A DNA stretch of 64,000 nt from Lysinibacillus fusiformis (lineage in GTDB: Bacteria; Bacillota; Bacilli; Bacillales_A; Planococcaceae). Every line of letters begins with the position of its first letter. Positions within the stretch are counted from its first letter, which is position 1. Positions 32,662 through 59,258 of the stretch are shown here, piece after piece. A program made the translations under genes and the position numbers. The notes under the pieces were generated by a model. That model made no database searches, had not been told where the DNA came from, and worked only from the letters and a program-made list of their open reading frames with translations. Location: the NCBI RefSeq assembly GCF_016925635.1, contig NZ_CP070490.1, forward strand, positions 248,001-312,000, written 5' to 3'.

Positions 32662-33126
32662 ATGCAATTACTTGATACAATTACAGAATTTGATCATTGT
32701 ATCTCATCTGCATTCGAGGCATTATCGATTAAAGTCATTTCAATTTCTACAACGAACGGCCCTCTTCAAGATATGCCGATAGAATTTGAACTTTTAACAC
32801 GCACCAAAATCGACGTCTACACACAAGAAGCCAGCACCTATATTTTAAGAATTCAAGGGTGTATTCCTGGTTCTATTGCACTTGGTCATCAAAACGAGTC
32901 TCTTTCCATTATTCCTCAAAAAGTAAACATTGAATGCAACTACAAGCTGTTACATGTTGATAAAAAAGATATGCAGCAAATTTTACAACATCCTGAACCA
33001 AATCGTCATTATTGTGAATGGCTCATTGATGCAATCAAAAACGCCAATATTCTTGTCGAGTTAAAGACAAATCAACACACGCTTACTGAATGGCCAATTG
33101 GCATCAAATCAGCAGTCATTATTTAG
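32662..33126 (+). CDS. conserved hypothetical protein, 154 residues
   Basis: Starts MQLLDTITEFDHCISSAFEA. A GTG at 32653 also opens the frame, but AAGGAGTGG is spaced for the ATG at 32662. The protein looks like a small soluble alpha/beta protein with no signal peptide or known motif. The 3' end is followed within a few bases by the hairpin that begins the first large repeat. No function can be assigned. Confidence 0.7.
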   Translation: MQLLDTITEFDHCISSAFEALSIKVISISTTNGPLQDMPIEFELLTRTKIDVYTQEASTYILRIQGCIPGSIALGHQNESLSIIPQKVNIECNYKLLHVDKKDMQQILQHPEPNRHYCEWLIDAIKNANILVELKTNQHTLTEWPIGIKSAVII

Positions 33127-33132
33127 CTAGAC

Positions 33133-33160
33133 AAAGACATACTTTAATAGGTATGTCTTT
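33133..33160 (+). terminator. left terminator duplicate of repeat copy A
   Basis: AAAGACATAC and GTATGTCTTT form a 10-bp stem just after the stop of the 154-residue gene. The 28-base hairpin recurs with one mismatch at 33706-33733, on the other side of the repeat core. Confidence 0.85.
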
Positions 33161-33705
33161 TCTTGTTGTTGAAAAAAGATGTTGTCAACGGCAGAGAAAG
33201 CAATTTTGCAAGGTGAGGGGTTGATTTCCGTTCCGCCAGCGTCCTTTCCAGAGGGCGTCCGATGAGCCGCTTCACTCACTTACGTTCGCTCCAGGGTCTC
33301 CTCTGTGACGCTAAATCCCCAAGGAGTGACGCTGGCTCCACTCCAATCAACCATGCTGCAAAAGTGTCTTTACTTTTTTTCATAGTAGCATAGCGATCAA
33401 ATCGCCCATTAACTGTATTCTTAGAGGGGATAAACTCTTATTTTCAATGTGGAGAAGTGATGCGTGACAACACCTCTTCATAAAGAGCAGTGAGCACCTT
33501 CCCTTTATTTGAAAACCTTTGCTAAAAAGTCAGTGGGTTGAAGTGGAAGGCTACGTGACTCCAGTGGGATAGCGAGATAGGCGAAGCCCTGCACGGAGCG
33601 GTAGCGGAGGAAGCGATTCGGCGCTCACCCACAGGAAAGCAAGTAGTCTGCAACGGAAATCCATTTCTACCTTTCAATTGACAGTTTTGTTTTTCAACAC
33701 TAAGC
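33161..33705. repeat. composite inverted-palindrome element, copy A (545 bp)
   Basis: The ends are TGTTGAAAAA (33167-33176) and its inverse TTTTTCAACA (33690-33699). Inside are two GC-rich palindromic units facing each other. The left unit (33219-33352, 134 bp) is closed by GGTTGAT/ATCAACC and GCCAGCGTC/GACGCTGGC. The right unit (33536-33662, 127 bp) is closed by GGCTAC and GTAGTC-type arms, with CCCAC/GTGGG. The inverse of the right unit resembles the left (GATTTCCGTT, GAGCCGCTTC and CACTCCAA are shared). A 183-bp AT-rich spacer lies between them. Other copies: 40546-41033 and 58688-59222. Frames read across it are not credible genes. Confidence 0.9.
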
Positions 33706-33733
33706 AAAGACATACTTAAATAGGTATGTCTTT
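33706..33733 (+). terminator. right terminator duplicate of repeat copy A
   Basis: The same 28-base hairpin as at 33133-33160 with one loop difference, followed by seven Ts on the plus strand. Confidence 0.85.
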
Positions 33734-33937
33734 TTTTATTCACATTTAAGTTTTACCATTTTATTGCGTTTCTATCATAACAACTTTCTATAGGTTCTGG
33801 AAATAATATTGTAAAAGTTATGTTTTAAAGAGAGCATTCTAACAGTTCTTATTTAATGGGGGTTTCAAATTTATCCTTTCGAAATGAAATGGCGCTATAA
33901 TAATAGTACAAAAATGATGATGGAGGCTTTCTTAAAC

Positions 33938-34780
33938 ATGGATATTAAAGAAACATTACAATCTTTTTTTACAATGACACTGTCTGATCGCCAAGCATTT
34001 ATGTTGCAGCATAGTGATTGGCTATTACAGGAGATGTTAGCGCATATTGGCTCAGTTGATGCTGAATTACGAGACCACCTCATTTATCGTACCTTTGTTG
34101 ATTTACTAAGTGATAATTTATTGAACCCTCAACAACTTCAATATTTGTTTGAAACAGTTACGGGTGATGATTTTTTATATTTACATATTGGAGAAAAAGC
34201 AACAGATAGTGTCTTTACTCGTTCGTTTTCTGCATTACTTGTTGCAGGGCTTCTTGCAAAGGATGCTGAATTACTCGTTTTAAGTGATGATGACTTGCAA
34301 CTATTCTTTAAAAAAATTGGCCGCTATTTGTTATTAGAGCAAGATACGAGAGGATTTGTTCAGGATAAAGGATGGGCACACAGTATTGCACATGGTGCAG
34401 ATTTAGCTGCAACGACAATAAAACATCCAAAATTCGATTTACAGTATGCACCATCCATCTTACATGCATTAAAACTTGTCACTTGGAAAGAAACCGTCTT
34501 TGTTAATGACGAAGAGGAACGCTTAGTCAATATCGTGGATGCGCTATTACTTCAACATTACTCAGAGGAAGCACTGATCGAATTTGTTGAACAGGCTTTT
34601 GATAAATTTGAAATGCATTTAATGACACAAGGTTATAATGAGCTCTTCTTTAGTGGACGCACTTGTACGTTGAACTTTATGAAAACATTATATTTTTCTT
34701 TAAAAATGAATAATAAAGCTCCACAACTACAAAATATGATTTATGGTCAAGTAGCCAAATGGCTGAAGCTTGGTGATTGA
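33938..34780 (+). CDS. DUF2785-family protein
   Basis: 280 residues from the ATG at 33938 (MDIKETLQSFFTM); GGAGG lies about 11 bases upstream, which disfavours the 33884 start. A segment RGFVQDKGWAHSIAHGADLA is typical of the DUF2785 family, a helical protein of unknown role with the conserved GWAHSIAHGAD motif. No signal peptide or membrane span. It stands alone between repeat copy A and the qox operon, with its own terminator. Confidence 0.75.
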   Translation: MDIKETLQSFFTMTLSDRQAFMLQHSDWLLQEMLAHIGSVDAELRDHLIYRTFVDLLSDNLLNPQQLQYLFETVTGDDFLYLHIGEKATDSVFTRSFSALLVAGLLAKDAELLVLSDDDLQLFFKKIGRYLLLEQDTRGFVQDKGWAHSIAHGADLAATTIKHPKFDLQYAPSILHALKLVTWKETVFVNDEEERLVNIVDALLLQHYSEEALIEFVEQAFDKFEMHLMTQGYNELFFSGRTCTLNFMKTLYFSLKMNNKAPQLQNMIYGQVAKWLKLGD

Positions 34781-34848
34781 CAAGCAATCTTAAAAATGCT
34801 GATTAACTCCACTTAATTCTTCATAACATAATTTTTTTCTAAAATACT

Positions 34849-34880
34849 AGCAAACTAAGACAGCTCTTAGTTTGCTTTTT
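34849..34880 (+). terminator. intrinsic terminator after the DUF2785 gene
   Basis: AGCAAACTAAGA and TCTTAGTTTGCT form a perfect 12-bp stem with a CAGC loop, followed by Ts. Confidence 0.9.
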
Positions 34881-35608
34881 ACTTTTCAGATAAAACAAAC
34901 AAAGTAAAAATTTGGATTCCGAAGAAAATTGATTATTATATTAACATAATTAATAATCCGCACCATTTATTCCCTCTTCACTCATTCCTTTCATTGAAAA
35001 TTCAACCTATTGTTTCCATAAAACGTCATTATGTGTACTCCTTTTTTTAATAAAAGGCAAATAAAAAATCCCATTACGTCTGATATGGCCATGATTTTAT
35101 TACAAAACAGCGTCTAAAATGTGAAATGCCATTTTTCACAATATAAATTATTTACTTAGGTAAACATCAGGAATGCAGTATTTTCAACGTTTCCACAGTG
35201 TTTAATGATTAAAACCTATAAATACCAATACTAAAATAACGATTTTTGTTCAAAAAATGTTCAAATTCAACACCGCTATACTATCATTTTCATAACAAAA
35301 TTATGTTTTTTCTTAAAAACAGGGCGTATAATCCAATGTGCAAACAACGAGAGATTGTGACAATCGTAGTTAAGCAAGTACGTATTTAAAACGATTGCGC
35401 AAGTCATTGATTTTGCTAACGCTTGCATCAGATCAGTCAACACTAGATTTTATGTTTCATATTGAACCATGCCATTGTAATTTCTTATGTTGTTGATTGA
35501 TACGCCAAGATAAAAGAGGTGACCTCAGTATCTACTATTTGTAAATGTGACACTGACAAAAAAACACATGAATTTTATGAATAGCCGTTCTATAGAAAGG
35601 AGTCAAAC
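34881..35608. other. long AT-rich region upstream of qoxA, no gene
   Basis: About 730 bases without a credible open frame. A 7-bp inverted repeat TGTGAAA...TTTCACA at 35120-35140, with a 7-base spacer, may be an operator, but the spacing fits neither the Fnr nor the Rex consensus. A TATAAT at 35327-35332, preceded by GTATG-type sequence but no good -35, is a candidate -10; if used, the qox leader would be about 270 nt. Confidence 0.45.
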
Positions 35609-36514
35609 ATGAAGAAAAAATTAAGTTTAATGTTAGTAGCATTGAGTGCGCTTGCTCTTCTTGCTGGTTGTGAACCATTAACAGTGTTCAATCCAAAAGG
35701 ACCTAATGCTGAAACATTATCAAACACAATTATCTTATCCATTATTACAATGGCCTTTATATTACTAGTCGTGTATGTGCTTTTAGCCTTTATGCTTACA
35801 AAGTATCGTGCATCAAAAGCATCTGCTGATTATGAGCCTCCTCATGAAGAAGGAAGCCATCTTCTTGAAATTACATGGACAGTAATTCCAATTATTATCG
35901 TAGCATTCTTAGCTGTTGTGACTGTAAGAACAACATCTACAGTAGAAGCTCAACCAGCAGGTTATGACGATAAGGAACCTTTAGTTATTTATGCATCATC
36001 ATCAAACTGGAAATGGCACTTTAGTTATCCTGAAGAAGGTGTTGAAACAGTCAACTATGTAAACATTCCGGTGGATCGTCCAATCGAGTTCAAACTTTAC
36101 TCTTTTGGTCCAATTACAAGTTTCTGGATTCCTCAATTAGCAGGTCAAAAGTATGCCATGAGTGATATGTTAACAACAATTCACCTTGCGGCAGATGAAG
36201 TTGGTTCATTTATGGGACGTAACTCTAACTTTAATGGACGTGGCTTTGCTGAAATGGAATTTGAAGCACAGTCTATGACGCAAGAAGACTTCGATAAATG
36301 GGTTACTGATGTAAAAGCAAAAGAAGCACCATTAACAGAAGAAAAATTTGATGAGCTTCTAGAGGCAGAACATGTTGGTCGCCAAAGCTTCTCATCTACA
36401 CACTTAGACTTCAGTCCAGCTCCAATGGAACATGGTAAAAACATGAATATGGATGATATGGATCATGGGGATATGTCTGAGGAAGACATGAATAATGAAC
36501 ATTCTGGTCATTAA
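35609..36514 (+). CDS. qoxA: quinol oxidase subunit II (QoxA)
   Basis: 301 residues. A lipoprotein signal peptide ends in the lipobox LLAGC (Cys21). Two transmembrane helices follow (about 42-64 and 86-108), then the periplasm-facing cupredoxin domain. Motif WKWHFSYPEEG is present, but the CuA copper ligands of cytochrome c oxidases are absent, which identifies the quinol-type enzyme. The C-terminal 29 residues are rich in His and Met (MDHGDMSEEDMNNEHSGH ends the protein). First gene of qoxABCD; RBS GAAAGGAG. Confidence 0.95.
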   Translation: MKKKLSLMLVALSALALLAGCEPLTVFNPKGPNAETLSNTIILSIITMAFILLVVYVLLAFMLTKYRASKASADYEPPHEEGSHLLEITWTVIPIIIVAFLAVVTVRTTSTVEAQPAGYDDKEPLVIYASSSNWKWHFSYPEEGVETVNYVNIPVDRPIEFKLYSFGPITSFWIPQLAGQKYAMSDMLTTIHLAADEVGSFMGRNSNFNGRGFAEMEFEAQSMTQEDFDKWVTDVKAKEAPLTEEKFDELLEAEHVGRQSFSSTHLDFSPAPMEHGKNMNMDDMDHGDMSEEDMNNEHSGH

Positions 36515-36574
36515 TTTGAATTTAACTTTGAACGAATCGAGACTTAATTTTTAAATTTGAAAGGAGCGCATCCA

Positions 36575-38518
36575 ATGAGTATGGAAGAATTATTCCATCC
36601 AATGCAAGAACCGATGATTTTAGCGGCAGCTATTAGTATCGTAGTTGGTGCAGTGGTTATCGTAGCTGGCCTTACTTATTTCAAAAAATGGGGCTATTTC
36701 TACAAAAACTGGCTATCAACTGTTGACCATAAAAAAATCGGGATTATGTATATCGCAGTAGCGTTATTAATGCTATTCCGCGGTGGTATCGATGCACTAT
36801 TAATGCGTGCACAAACAGCCGTTCCAGATAACGGACTTCTTGATGCACAACACTATAATGAGATTTTCACAACACATGGTTTATTAATGATTCTATTTAT
36901 GGCGATGCCATTTGTCATCGGGTTAATGAACATTGTCATTCCACTTCAAATCGGTGCACGTGACGTTGCTTTCCCACGTTTAAATGCTGTCAGCTTCTGG
37001 CTATTTGCAGCAGGTGCTGGTTTATTAAACTTATCATTCATTATCGGTGGTTCACCAGACGCTGGTTGGACAGCCTACTTCCCTCTTGCAAGTACGGAAT
37101 TTAGTCCGACTGTAGGGAATAACTATTATTCTTTAGCACTTCAATTATCAGGTATTGGTACTTTAATGACAGGTGTTAACTTTATCACGACGATCATTAA
37201 AATGCGTGCCCCTGGTATGACATTAATGAAAATGCCAATGTTTTCTTGGTCTATTTTAATTACAAACATTATTATCGTATTCGCGTTCCCAGTATTAACT
37301 GTAGCGCTTGCACTTATGATGTTTGACCGTCAATTCGGCACAAAATTCTTTGCGATGCAAGACGGTGGTATGGATATGCTTTGGGCCAACCTATTCTGGG
37401 TTTGGGGACATCCTGAAGTTTATATCGTTATCCTACCTGCTTTCGGTATTTTCTCAGAAATCATTGCAACATTTGCACGTAAAAACTTATACGGTTACAA
37501 ATCAATGGTGATGAGTATGGTGGTCATTTCCCTACTATCATTCGTAGTTTGGGCCCACCACTTCTATACAATGGGTCACGGTGTAATGGTTAACAGTGTT
37601 TTCTCTATTACAACAATGGCAATCGCAGTTCCTACTGGTGTTAAAATATTTAACTGGCTACTCACAATGAGACACGGGAAAATTCAATTTACAACACCGA
37701 TGCTTTATGCACTTGGCTTTATTCCTATCTTCACCATTGGTGGGGTTACAGGGGTTATGCTCGCGATGGCAAGTGCCGACTACCAATATCATAATACGAT
37801 GTTCTTAGTTGCCCACTTCCACTATGTATTAATTCCAGGTACAGTATTTGGTGTGCTTGCAGGTTACCACTACTGGTGGCCAAAAATGTTCGGTTTCCGT
37901 CTAAATGAAAAATTAGGGAAAGCTGGTTTCTGGTTCATTGCCATCAGCTTCAACGTAACATTCTTCCCACTATTCATTTTAGGTTTAGATGGTTATGCTC
38001 GTCGTATGTACACTTATTCTGAGTCTACTGGTTATGGTCCATTGAACATGTTATCGTTCGTCGGTGCGCTAGGACTTGCAGTCGGCTTTGCATTAATTGT
38101 CTATAACATTTACTACAGCTGGAAACATATGCCTCGCAATGAAAAGGCAGATGTTTGGGATGGTCGTACACTTGAGTGGGCTACTCATTCTCCAGTACCA
38201 GAATATAACTTTGCCGTAGTGCCTACTGTTACTCGCTTAGATGAGTTTTGGTTCGCCAAAAAAGAAGGTCGCGATATTACTGCAGGTCCAATCGAAAAAA
38301 TTCACATGCCAAATAATACAGGCACACCATTCTGGATGAGTGGATTCTTCTTCCTTGCAGCATTCTTCGCTGTATTCAATCTATGGATTCCGGCCATCAT
38401 CAGTATGCTTGGTGTATTTGGCTTCATGATCCATCGTTCATTCGAAAAAGATCATGGTCGTTACATTTCAGTTGAGGAAGTAATGGCAACTGAGAAAAGC
38501 TTGAGAGGTGATAAATAA
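36575..38518 (+). CDS. qoxB: quinol oxidase subunit I (QoxB)
   Basis: 647 residues with about 14-15 transmembrane helices. Haem-copper oxidase catalytic subunit that reduces O2 to water with electrons from menaquinol. The conserved haem-copper motifs [10 protein letters not shown] (copper ligand His, cross-linked Tyr) and [10 protein letters not shown] (haem and copper ligand histidines) are visible, as is [16 protein letters not shown] supports the ATG at 36575 rather than the TTG at 36557. It overlaps neither neighbour, but qoxC follows by one base after its ribosome site. Confidence 0.97.
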
Positions 38519-38519
38519 T

Positions 38520-39119
38520 ATGAAAATCGATTCTTCACTTCCATTAGAATATAGTACAGAGGAAAACCGTCTAAAAATCTTTGGTTTTTGGATTTTCCTT
38601 GGCGCCGAAATCGTGTTATTTGCCACATTATTTACAGTGTATTTCACGCTTCATACACGTACAGGTAGTGGACCAAATGGTGCTGAAATTTTCGAATTAA
38701 CTCCAGTTCTATGGGAAACATTCTTATTATTAACAAGTAGTTTCACAATTGGCCTTGGTGTTCATGCAATGCGTATCGGACGTAAAAAAGCGATGATGAC
38801 TTTCTTTATCATCACTCTTTTACTAGGTCTTGGCTTCTTAGCTATTGAGATTGATGAATTTGTCACTTATGTACACGAAGGTGCGACGATTCAAACAAGC
38901 GCATTCTTATCGTCATTAATGACTCTACTTGGAACGCACGGTGCCCACGTAACATTTGGTTTCTTCTGGGGCGTAGCTATTTTAATCCAAGTAGCTAAAC
39001 GTGGTTTAAATCCACAAACAGCGAACAAAGCGTTTATCTTCTCATTGTACTGGCATTTCCTAGACGTTGTTTGGATTTTCATCTTCAGCTTCGTCTACTT
39101 GAAAGGACTGATTAGCTGA
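38520..39119 (+). CDS. qoxC: quinol oxidase subunit III (QoxC)
   Basis: 199 residues, five transmembrane helices, cytochrome c oxidase subunit III family. Motifs include IFGFWIFLGAEIVLFATLF and HGAHVTFGFFWG and the end segment LYWHFLDVVWIFIFSFVYL. GAGAGGTG supports the ATG at 38520 over the GTG at 38508. The 3' end overlaps qoxD (TGATG). Confidence 0.96.
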   Translation: MKIDSSLPLEYSTEENRLKIFGFWIFLGAEIVLFATLFTVYFTLHTRTGSGPNGAEIFELTPVLWETFLLLTSSFTIGLGVHAMRIGRKKAMMTFFIITLLLGLGFLAIEIDEFVTYVHEGATIQTSAFLSSLMTLLGTHGAHVTFGFFWGVAILIQVAKRGLNPQTANKAFIFSLYWHFLDVVWIFIFSFVYLKGLIS

Positions 39120-39403
39120 TGAAGGAATTATTCCCAAAACAACATGTGATGGGCTTCGGCTTTTCACTATTACTAACAATTATAGCTTTAGCAGTTGTTA
39201 AATTCGATATGTCTCTTAATATGGCATTTGGAATTTTACTAGTAACTGCCCTTGCACAAGCAACTGTACAATTAGTATTATTCATGCACATCGGTGAATC
39301 TGAAGATAAGAAAACGTTATATACAACGATTTTATACTCAGTATTCGTAGGTGTTGTGACAATCATCGGTACATTATTTGCTATGATCTGGGGTTATAAT
39401 TGA
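39119..39403 (+). CDS. qoxD: quinol oxidase subunit IV (QoxD)
   Basis: 94 residues with three predicted transmembrane helices, of the cytochrome o/aa3 subunit IV family. Motifs: MGFGFSLLLTIIAL and LVTALAQATVQLVLFMHIGE. It overlaps qoxC by three bases and closes the operon. A strong terminator follows. Confidence 0.95.
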   Translation: MKELFPKQHVMGFGFSLLLTIIALAVVKFDMSLNMAFGILLVTALAQATVQLVLFMHIGESEDKKTLYTTILYSVFVGVVTIIGTLFAMIWGYN

Positions 39404-39425
39404 TCCATTACGCCTCGGTGTAAAC

Positions 39426-39480
39426 AAAAAGCTGTCCCAACTTATTGTCTTTGTACGATAAGTTCGTGACAGCTTTTTTG
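39426..39480 (+). terminator. intrinsic terminator after qoxABCD
   Basis: AAAAAGCTGTC pairs with GACAGCTTTTTT, with an inner AACTTAT/ATAAGTT stem, and ends in six Ts. Confidence 0.9.
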
Positions 39481-39650
39481 TTTTATCCCTATTCATTTGA
39501 TAATTTTCACGTTTACCACTAAAAGAAGTAGGGAAAATGTTGTTTTTTTAATAAAAAATTAGTTCTTTTCTAACAATTTATGAAACTTTTCCTTTTCTAG
39601 TGCGTATAGTAGTAGATAGTGTTTTTTACCAAGAATAGGAGATGAAAGTA

Positions 39651-40508
39651 ATGAAGAAAATTTTTAAAGTATTAGCAGTCGGAACACTAGCGTTGACACT
39701 TGCCGCTTGTAATTCAAGTGCTACGCCTACGAAAGACACAACGAATAAAAGCAAACTCACTTTAGAACAAGTGTATGACAAAGCAGTGGATCGTCAGGCT
39801 GATATTAAAAGTGCAAGTGCAAAAATGGATATGACACAGGTGACAAAGGTTGGATCTGGTGAAGAGGCAATGGAGTTTTCGATCGACTCTAAAATGAAGA
39901 TGGATATCATCGTTGACCCACTTGCTATGCATTTATCAGGGTCTATGTCGATGCCAGATATGATGAGTGAAGGCGAAGAAACAATGGACATGCCAATAGA
40001 AATGTATATGAAAAAAGATGCTGGCCTATTTATGAAAGATATGACGACAGACAGCTGGTTAAAGCTTCCTGATGAGAACTTTGATGCTATTTTAGATCAA
40101 ACGGCGGCTTCTGCTGACGCGAAGGAACAGCTAGAACAACTGAAAAAATTCATTAATGACTTTACATTTGAACAAACGGATGATGAATATGTCCTTACAT
40201 TAGATGCAAAAGGCGATAAATTCAAAGAGCTTATCGATTCTGAAATTAATAAGTCTATGCAAGATATGGGTCTAGAAGAAAACCCTCTGGATCAACTAAC
40301 AATTGAAAAAATCAATTATGTGCTGCACATCGATAAAGAGACTTTCGATACGAACAAAATGGATATGAATTTTGATTTAAAAATGGCCGTAGAAGGTGAC
40401 GAATTGTTAATGAATACAAAATCAGTCGTTACGTATACTGAATTTAATCATCTAAAAACAATCGATATTCCCCAAAGCATTATTGATAACGCTCAAACAA
40501 TCGAATAA
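39651..40508 (+). CDS. secreted lipoprotein, LolA/LppX-like (DUF6612-like)
   Basis: 285 residues. Lipoprotein signal with lipobox LTLAAC (Cys20). The frame opens at an ATG 39642, but AGGAG abuts it, so the ATG at 39651 is the better start. The mature part is acidic and Asp/Met-rich, with pattern MDMTQVTKVGSGEEAMEFSI and long amphipathic beta strands, consistent with a small extracytoplasmic lipid- or ligand-binding fold. I recall similar Bacillus lipoproteins being placed in DUF6612; not checked. Function unknown. Confidence 0.75.
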   Translation: MKKIFKVLAVGTLALTLAACNSSATPTKDTTNKSKLTLEQVYDKAVDRQADIKSASAKMDMTQVTKVGSGEEAMEFSIDSKMKMDIIVDPLAMHLSGSMSMPDMMSEGEETMDMPIEMYMKKDAGLFMKDMTTDSWLKLPDENFDAILDQTAASADAKEQLEQLKKFINDFTFEQTDDEYVLTLDAKGDKFKELIDSEINKSMQDMGLEENPLDQLTIEKINYVLHIDKETFDTNKMDMNFDLKMAVEGDELLMNTKSVVTYTEFNHLKTIDIPQSIIDNAQTIE

Positions 40509-40513
40509 TTAAA

Positions 40514-40545
40514 AACCTGCTTGTGCTAGTTAGCGCAAGCAGGTT
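40514..40545 (+). terminator. left terminator duplicate of repeat copy B
   Basis: AACCTGCTTGTGC and GCGCAAGCAGGTT form a long stem directly after the lipoprotein gene. The right duplicate at 41034-41065 differs at four positions, and two of these are a compensatory T-A to A-T pair change. Confidence 0.85.
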
Positions 40546-41033
40546 CTTTTTGTTGAAAAAAGATGATGTCAACGGCAGAAAAAGCAACTTTGCAAGTGAG
40601 AGGTTGATTTCCGTTCCGTCAGCGTCCTTTCCAGGGGGCGTCCGATGAGCCGCTTCACTCACTAGCGTTCGCTCCAGGGTCTCCTCTGTGACACTCAATC
40701 CCCTAGGAGTGACGCTGGCTCTACTCCAATCAACCATTCTGCAAAGTGTTTAGAGGGGATAAGCTCTTATTTTCAATGTGAAGAAGTGATGCGTGACAAC
40801 ACCCCTCTATAAAGAGTAGTAAACACTTTCACTTTATTTGAAAACCTTTGCTAAAAAGTCAGTGGGTTGGAGTGGAAGGCTACTTGACTCCCGTGGGATA
40901 GCGAGACAGGCGAGCCCCTGCACGGAGCGGTAGCAGAGGAAGCGGCTCGGCGCTCGCCCACAGGAAAGCAAGTAGCCTGCAACGGAAATCCATTTCTACC
41001 TTTCAATTGACTGTTTTGTATTTCAACACTAAA
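40546..41033. repeat. composite inverted-palindrome element, copy B (488 bp)
   Basis: Same architecture as copy A: left palindromic unit 40602-40735 (134 bp), right unit 40865-40991 (127 bp), TGTTGAAAAA-type ends. The AT-rich spacer is 129 bp, about 50 bp shorter than in the other copies. In the right unit AGGCTACTTG and CAAGTAGCCT are perfectly complementary. It lies between the convergent lipoprotein and uspA genes, flanked by duplicated terminators. Confidence 0.9.
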
Positions 41034-41065
41034 AACCTGCATGTGCTAACTAGCGCATGCAGGTT
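41034..41065 (-). terminator. right terminator duplicate of repeat copy B
   Basis: AACCTGCATGTGC and GCGCATGCAGGTT form the stem. It lies 25 bases after the uspA stop and has a T-run on both strands, so it serves as the uspA terminator. Confidence 0.85.
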
Positions 41066-41090
41066 CTTTTATTCTAAACTATTAAAAAAA

Positions 41091-41510
41091 CTAACGAACA
41101 ATTAACACATCACATAGCGCATGTCGTACGACTTTCTCTGCAACAGAGCCTAACATCATTTTCTCCATACGATTTAATCCTGTTGCACCACAAACAATTA
41201 AATCAACCTGAGGTAATTGTGTTAAAATACCTTTTGGTGAACCTGTTTCTACCGTTGATTCTACCGCTTTGACCCCTGTTTGTAATGCCTCTTTTTCTAG
41301 CTTTTCCATTTTAAGAATGTTTTCCTTCTTCAATTCCTCCGCATATTTTAAGTCATATGCTGAAACTGCTCCAAACGATTTCGTATCAATTACATTCACT
41401 AATTGCAAAATAGCATTGTATTCTCTTGCTAATTGACTCGCTCTGTCCAATGCTTTTAATGATTGTTCTGAGAAATCAATTGCTACTGCGATTTTAAGAT
41501 AATTAGCCAT
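41091..41510 (-). CDS. universal stress protein, UspA family
   Basis: 139 residues from the ATG at 41510, where GGGGAGG is well spaced; the ATG at 41525 has none. The single Usp domain starts KIAVAIDFSEQSLKALDRAS and ends with the ATP-binding pattern VCGATGLNRMEKMMLGSVAEKVV (G-2x-G-9x-G-S type), so this is the nucleotide-binding subclass. Role in stress survival is general for the family. Confidence 0.93.
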   Translation of the reverse strand: MANYLKIAVAIDFSEQSLKALDRASQLAREYNAILQLVNVIDTKSFGAVSAYDLKYAEELKKENILKMEKLEKEALQTGVKAVESTVETGSPKGILTQLPQVDLIVCGATGLNRMEKMMLGSVAEKVVRHALCDVLIVR

Positions 41511-58651: not shown

Positions 58652-58687
58652 AATAAGACTTTCTATTGTTTGATAGAAAGTCTTATT
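58652..58687 (+). terminator. left terminator duplicate of repeat copy C
   Basis: AATAAGACTTTCTAT pairs with ATAGAAAGTCTTATT after the AbgB stop. The 36-base hairpin recurs, identical, at 59223-59258. Confidence 0.85.
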
Positions 58688-59222
58688 CATGTTGTTGAAA
58701 AAAGATAATGTCAACGGCAGAAAAAGCAACTTGGCAAGGTGAGGGGTTGATTTCCGTTCCGCCAGCATCCTTTCCAGGGGGCGTCCGATGAGCCGCTTCA
58801 CTCACTTCCGTTCGCTCCAGGGTCTCCTCTGTGACGCTAAATCCCCTTGGAGTGACGCTGGCTCCACTCCAATCAACCATTCTGCAAAGTGTCTTTACTT
58901 TTTTCATAGTAGCGATCAAATCGCCCATTATCTGTATTCTTAGCGGGGATAAGCTCTTATTTTCAGTGTGGAGAAGGATGCGTGACAACACCCTTCCATA
59001 AAGAGTAGTGAGCACCTTCACTTTATTTGAAAACCTTTGCTAAAAAGTTAGTGGGTTGAAGTGGAAGGCTACTTGACTCCCGTGGGATAGCGAGACAGGC
59101 GAGCCCCTGCACGGAGCGGGAGCGGAGGAAGCGGCTCGGCGCTCGCCCACAGGAAAGCAAGTAGCCTGCAACGGAAATCCATTTCTACCTTTCAATTGAC
59201 TGTTTTGTTTTTCAACACTAAG
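58688..59222. repeat. composite inverted-palindrome element, copy C (535 bp)
   Basis: Same architecture: left unit 58745-58878 (134 bp), right unit 59054-59180 (127 bp), AT-rich spacer of 175 bp, TGTTGAAAAA-type ends. Left units of copies A and C are clearly very similar by eye. It lies between two convergent genes and duplicates the terminator exactly. Confidence 0.9.
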
Positions 59223-59258
59223 AATAAGACTTTCTATTGTTTGATAGAAAGTCTTATT
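59223..59258 (-). terminator. right terminator duplicate of repeat copy C
   Basis: A 36-base hairpin identical to 58652-58687. It lies 12 bases after the stop of the NCS2-like permease and serves that gene; a T-run is present on the plus strand as well. Confidence 0.9.

Follow-up and report, generated by a model that had tools for sequence, protein, structure and literature searches.

A MITE of Lysinibacillus fusiformis flanked by two copies of a terminator hairpin, and its probable mobilization by an IS1182-family transposase

How does a gene come to be followed by two copies of the same terminator hairpin, with a repeat lying between them? This question is raised by a locus of Lysinibacillus fusiformis, in a 64,000-nucleotide stretch of contig NZ_CP070490.1 (positions 248,001 to 312,000, forward strand) that was analysed as a whole and is called the window here. 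The original prediction left two options: either the repeat doubles a terminator by inserting there, or it is copied together with its terminator. Target duplications of DDE transposons are usually short and of fixed length. Long or variable target duplications occur with other transposase groups, the IS1634/IS1549 group and the IS1202 group, and we know of none there that is centred on a hairpin. Group IIC introns also insert at intrinsic terminators, as retro-elements without a DDE transposase; to our knowledge, they do not duplicate the hairpin. For the IS1182 family, ISfinder is said to hold a wide range of repeat lengths.

Three copies of the element in the window

Three copies of the element, A, B and C, share a common core and have different hairpins, and a direct-repeat search gives the same three cores as direct reading. 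The features are laid out as follows.

33132..33161, + strand: left target duplication of copy A, formed by the upstream gene's terminator hairpin; 30 bp, differing from the right copy at 1 position, terminator-like on the + strand
33162..33704, + strand: MITE of copy A, without a transposase gene; 543 bp, with ends CTTGTTGTTGAAAAA and TTTTTCAACACTAAG that were compared with IS1182-type ends
33705..33734, + strand: right target duplication of copy A; 30 bp, terminator-like on both strands
33219..33352, + strand: internal unit 1 of copy A, which also occurs alone in other species; arm pair 33219-33243/33328-33352
33535..33670, + strand: internal unit 2 of copy A, inverted and diverged relative to unit 1, with which it aligns at a score of 33 (shuffles, 25 or less)
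40514..40545, + strand: left hairpin of copy B, terminator-like
40546..41033, + strand: MITE of copy B, with a right boundary uncertain by about 2 bases (A run)
41034..41065, + strand: right hairpin of copy B, terminator-like
58652..58687, + strand: left target duplication of copy C; 36 bp, identical to the right copy
58688..59222, + strand: MITE of copy C, with the same core as A
59223..59258, + strand: right target duplication of copy C, identical to the left copy

In copy A, the hairpins AAAGACATACTTTAATAGGTATGTCTTT (33133-33160) and AAAGACATACTTAAATAGGTATGTCTTT (33706-33733) enclose an element with the inverted ends TGTTGAAAAA and TTTTTCAACA. Direct reading bore out the claim that these 28-base hairpins are equal at 27 of 28 positions, and reading and direct-repeat search together bore out the recurrence of the arrangement at B and C with other hairpins. 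The element described as a 545-bp core also stood, but not its size: the best bounds, 33162-33704, give 543 bp, with a duplication of 30 bp and one mismatch. Its inverted ends, CTTGTTGTTGAAAAA and CTTAGTGTTGAAAAA, are the terminal inverted repeats expected of a MITE. The element is non-autonomous: a transposase gene of its own is absent, the only frames overlapping copies B and C being of 85 and 112 aa, neither with a Pfam match. A search for known RNAs in the core, run with Rfam on 32900-41300, yielded two matches under the gathering score, neither of which lies in the element.

At all three copies, the left hairpin starts 5-6 bases past the stop codon of the upstream gene. A simple scan calls all four hairpins of A and B terminator-like on the + strand, and in copy C it calls one terminator-like hairpin on each strand. 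The two hairpins of copy B differ from each other in ways that keep the stem paired: between 40514-40545 and 41034-41065, one stem pair has undergone a compensated change (T-A versus A-T), and the loop reads GT versus AC.

The core had been described as carrying two inverted palindromic units. Their mutual inversion holds, since units 1 and 2 align as diverged inverted copies with a score of 33 versus a best of 25 in 200 shuffles. Aligned with its own reverse complement, each unit failed to beat its shuffles (19 with a shuffle maximum of 22, and 15 with a maximum of 23), so that apart from one 25-nt arm pair at 76% in unit 1, a palindromic nature of the units themselves finds little backing. 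Core positions ~37-187, the first internal unit, also occur alone at ~82-88% identity in many copies in G021, G013 and other genomes of the same genus, and this unit may be an independent repeat.

Flanking hairpins across the genome and empty sites in relatives

The one-contig genome of 5.01 Mb has 43 listed core matches, at least 40 of them near full length, and a same-genus search found a core match in 24 of 32 genomes, the own genome counted. These copy numbers are lower bounds, with 40 of 140 first-look candidates scored and at most 19 copies per related genome. The pattern of the right end, at one mismatch or fewer, occurs 70 times, and its reversed control once. Copies with a match reaching within 12 bases of both ends entered the listing of copy ends; both ends were located in 34 of the 40 own-genome copies, the other six having no locatable end. 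An ungapped flank duplication was found in 27 of the 34 (score 14-36), with a hairpin that differs from locus to locus, while 1,122 mismatched flank pairs, made of the left flank of one copy and the right flank of another, reached a maximum of 3.0. A lack of matching hairpins at most other copies had been named as the finding that would speak against the original prediction, and the 27 copies show the opposite. The presence of a terminator-hairpin copy on each side of the MITE is thereby confirmed.

Seven of the 34 copies fall outside this group. On visual inspection, the duplication of L014 and L023 is there but contains an indel; in L005 and L021 the left hairpin is absent, which fits a deletion at a 5-base microhomology; and L020 adjoins another element, a local reason for the missing score. 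L063 has no duplication score and no local explanation.

What did these loci look like before the element arrived? Orthologues of the upstream genes were located in relatives, the sequence past their stop codons was read, and the flanks of each copy were projected onto it. For copy A, 30 loci were available, with both flanks aligned in 28, of which 27 lie outside the own genome. The projected flanks overlap by 28-33 bases in 18 of the 27, so that one hairpin serves both sides; three (L117-L119) carry other insertions at that place, and the remaining six are unreadable by the overlap measure (one overlap of 17 and five negative values). The 17 loci of copy B gave an overlap of 31 in four, other positive values from partial matches in eight, and negative values in five. 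The copy C test used six of 30 loci (L284-L289), the rest being paralogues at ~55% identity, and gave three loci, two with overlaps of 36-37; in the third, L286, the overlap is 2, the right flank having matched the hairpin in reverse, and the sequence itself has one hairpin. The empty sites predicted for the copies agree with close relatives. Two hairpins at an orthologous locus before insertion would contradict duplication on insertion; single-hairpin relatives exist for A, B and C.

Since orthologous loci lacking the element have a single hairpin, the hairpin was duplicated by the insertion, and the duplication of the whole hairpin is itself nearly certain. Of the two options left by the original prediction, insertion at a terminator with its duplication is supported by these empty sites, and copying together with the terminator is not, as the hairpin is particular to each locus and matches the one in the corresponding empty site. 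It might still be argued that the element travels with its terminators, every scored copy having a hairpin pair at its ends much as a longer repeat unit would, or that tandem terminators predate the insertion. The variation of the hairpins by locus, and their match with the lone hairpin at the empty site concerned, make this scarcely credible. Chance and pre-existing tandem terminators are ruled out by the control flank pairs together with the single-hairpin empty sites.

Two of the loci with other insertions deserve description. L117, from another species, has an element with related ends at the orthologue of the copy A terminator, with the hairpin AGACATACTAAATAGGTATGTCT on both sides. At the orthologue of that terminator, L119 (G030:C8, downstream of 292139-292606, minus strand) has a short unit with AACAAATCTTTTCTGTGCGAAAGCGAAGCG in it, repeated in a long tandem array.

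IS1182-family elements with shorter and longer transposases

Which transposase could move an element without a transposase gene? A transposase-domain search of the own genome gave seven matches and led to an IS1182-type element, L088, flanked by a perfect 33-bp hairpin duplication. It is the sole copy of the presumed mobilizer found in the own genome, and its transposase is broken by one stop. By inspection, with no measure of significance, the MITE and the IS1182-type IS have common ends of the type CAT--TGTTGAAAAAC----GTCAAT, with CTT for CAT in copy A. Relatives of L088 at 62% identity have open 473-aa frames in G013 and G021, and five of the eight relatives examined show a duplication (14-37 bp). 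In a search against NF033551 (cut-off 270 bits), L183 scored 474.5, L232 481.1, L079 427.5 and L256, one of the L088 relatives, 288.9. L088, searched as two pieces, gave 193.9 and 69.3, both under the cut-off, and the fifth protein in this search, a 33-aa stretch, had no match. From the ends and the mode of targeting, we infer that a transposase of this IS1182 clade moves the MITE in trans. In its full form this is our best explanation, and a probable one: the mobilizer would be an IS1182-family DDE transposase of a clade that targets stem-loops, usually intrinsic terminators just past a stop codon.

Transposase frames of two other families lie inside MITE copies and might be taken for the movers. 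In L087 (G000:C1:1741900-1745500), the region L087:683-2845 is a MITE with a nested IS4-family IS that has a 450-aa frame. Inverted ends and a 10-bp duplication (GCTACTTGAC) belong to this insert itself, and the duplicated hairpin of the MITE is left intact; as a nested insertion with its own ends and duplication, it is ruled out as the mobilizer. L086 (G000:C1:2631700-2635200) has IS3-family transposase frames inside a MITE copy, which we took as a nested IS3 copy with its bounds left unset. With the IS4 insert nested, and with MITE-like ends and hairpin duplication both found in the IS1182-type IS, movement of the MITE by an IS4 or IS3 transposase is very improbable.

The hairpin duplication extends to IS1182 elements with shorter transposases in genomes of the same taxonomic family. 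Among 63 such copies, ends were located in 59, and a duplication (score at least 12) was present in 52 and absent in seven, versus 1 of 3,422 swapped pairs (swapped maximum 19). The transposase frames in the 52 duplicated rows have 417-473 aa, and the first piece of L088 has 349 aa. In named genomes, a scan covered the best 80 of 587 relatives, some of them the same places as in the 59-copy set. A long direct repeat was found in 73 of these 80 and was absent in seven (swapped outer flanks, 1 of 400), and 66 of the 73 repeats are palindromic to a degree that 2% of random sequences attain; one of the 73, L328, does not count as a flank duplication, its match lying inside the IS. All of these best 80 of 587 are from Bacillales, including Ureibacillus, Lysinibacillus, Bacillus, Cytobacillus, Neobacillus, Peribacillus, Mesobacillus, Sporosarcina and Lederbergia. 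A first de novo search had found repeats in only eight of 37 IS1182 loci, as it pooled two clades and used pieces that did not reach all of the ends; sorting the loci by transposase length resolved this low yield.

The other clade consists of IS1182 elements with long transposases (frames of 535-674 aa), whose ends were set by copy comparison. Among 23 of the 24 fetched copies (L247, with a broken alignment, was left out), drawn from five genomes, none had a flank duplication, with a maximum score of 5 even at 8 bases of allowed slack. Both outcomes can be seen at one locus. At L003/L080 of the own genome (G000:C1:~1136929-1139181), the left hairpin of a MITE is missing and a long-transposase IS1182 element of ~1.8 kb stands in its place, with the right hairpin retained; at the same locus in G002 (L031, G002:C17:44752-45288), the left hairpin is present. 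L003 is without a duplication score because its left hairpin was replaced by the long-transposase element. By eye, the left end of the long-transposase elements, GAGGCTGGGACAAAACCCACCTC (for example, L079 from base 173), can be folded as a hairpin beside retained A and T tracts, and the replacing element may bring a substitute terminator. In a quick tree of 38 transposases, with 10 unlabelled rows and long branches flagged, one change separates 23 duplicating from five non-duplicating rows. Duplication thus depends on the transposase clade. These results go beyond the original prediction, as the ends tie the element to the IS1182 family and the duplication belongs to a transposase clade and not to the repeat alone.

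Related systems have been described in part. IS1272 and TnSha1, IS1182-family elements of Staphylococcus, target stem-loops without a primary sequence consensus, several of them terminators, and remove or replace all or part of the stem-loop with no target duplication, according to excerpts of PMC5678879 and PMC4923244. On this evidence, they resemble the MITE system in family of transposase and in type of target. They lose the stem-loop, whereas 27 of 34 MITE copies and 52 of 59 IS copies described here duplicate it, an outcome other than replacement. Duplication of the whole stem-loop is drawn in the excerpted part of PMC5678879 as a hypothetical pathway b only; this is the outcome found here, dyad-centred in 132 of 139 insertions. 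ISCbo5, another IS1182-family element, lies at gene-end hairpins that probably stop transcription (excerpt of PMC3098183, silent on hairpin duplication) and is like the present elements in this target. IS1182 members with 4-bp repeats include ISPse1 (PMC3281130) and ISCaa15 (PMC3196728), and a MITE has been paired with an IS1182 element, ISMac2 (PMC3852290); in the passages available, these share the family name with our elements and have short repeats (4 bp listed), with no hairpin target mentioned. The excerpt of a MITE review does not mention IS1182.

The original prediction knew of no description of terminator duplication. We also found no paper documenting whole-hairpin duplication, in a literature search weak on subscription papers, and ISfinder may record it; judging from its excerpts, PMC5678879 had already drawn the hypothetical pathway. 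As far as these partial sources go, hairpin replacement by IS1272 was already known and whole-hairpin duplication had been put forward only hypothetically. An outcome that the excerpted PMC5678879 presented as no more than a possibility now has many natural examples, and a related clade that does not duplicate its target stands beside them. The factor that decides between duplication and replacement can now be tested by comparing the two kinds of transposase. In addition, identical terminator pairs around a repeat in these genomes serve as readable footprints of insertion.

Geometry of the duplication and its possible mechanism

The MITE and IS insertions were pooled (52 IS, 69 named and 26 MITE rows, 147 in total), and removal of eight repeats left 139 distinct insertions. 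With the hairpin centre sought only within the duplication, the two centres coincide in 132 of 139 and lie within 2 nt in 136 of 139, compared with 4.7% of length-matched random intervals. Duplications range from 14 to 52 bp, with a median of 28, and their length correlates with that of the hairpin (Spearman 0.62). Base-for-base symmetry is imperfect, as the first and last base pair with each other in 42 of 52 IS rows and L175 is offset by about 3 bases. At the level of sequence, the insertions establish a single pre-existing hairpin that is duplicated whole, over a length varying with the hairpin, and cuts that have dyad symmetry. A duplication of 14-52 bp that is placed by the hairpin dyad points to recognition of DNA structure.

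A structural mechanism of insertion is likely. The palindrome would fold, for instance by extrusion of a cruciform; both 3' ends of the element would be joined to the two 5' feet of the stem-loops, and filling in of the long gaps would then keep a complete hairpin on each side. This route corresponds to 'pathway b', put forward as a hypothesis by Wan et al. 2017. We also incline, if only slightly, to a broader account of the IS1182 clade, in which the transposase reads DNA shape and cuts exactly symmetrically at the base of any stem-loop, irrespective of its sequence and size, and the duplicated target is therefore the hairpin as such; a related clade would remove the hairpin, one change in the tree would part copying from replacing, and the copying mode would give terminator-sparing insertions at re-usable sites.

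Could the same geometry arise from an unfolded duplex target? A transposase dimer might read the palindrome as duplex DNA, with one subunit per arm near the junction of the stem and the A/T tract and with flexible spacing. Among the 113 distinct IS insertions, the first base of the duplication is A in 97 and the last is T in 100, which argues for some sequence preference at the cuts. A range of 14-52 bp with exact symmetry would, however, demand an unusually elastic complex, and the base counts of the pooled insertions contain no other shared sequence; we regard the dimer as rather unlikely. In a second alternative, the hairpin would be met as single-stranded DNA, at a replication fork or in a transcription bubble, and copied in repair. 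The targets do lie at gene ends, where transcription stops, but the presumed enzyme is DDE and not HUH, and the cuts are symmetric on both strands, which leaves the single-stranded route improbable.

The landing sites can be described in raw counts, without a random-position baseline and possibly with repeat insertions included. The nearest frames in the 113 IS rows are convergent in 52, tandem in 57, divergent in three and undetermined on one side in one; the 3' end of the nearest gene is at a median of 13 nt and within 30 nt in 83 of 110, and a frame reaches the duplication in eight. The 26 MITE rows comprise 16 convergent, 10 tandem and no divergent sites, and 22 are within 30 nt of a gene 3' end. 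Since the terminator is kept and doubled, insertion would be mild for the neighbouring genes and the site would be usable again; termination would be spared and re-use of the site permitted. Consistent with such re-use, IS copies in G021 (L256, L265) and G007 (L219, L220) lie at the hairpin that follows an earlier element with CAACACTA-type ends, and the re-used hairpins are directly at, or a few bases past, the right end of that earlier element.
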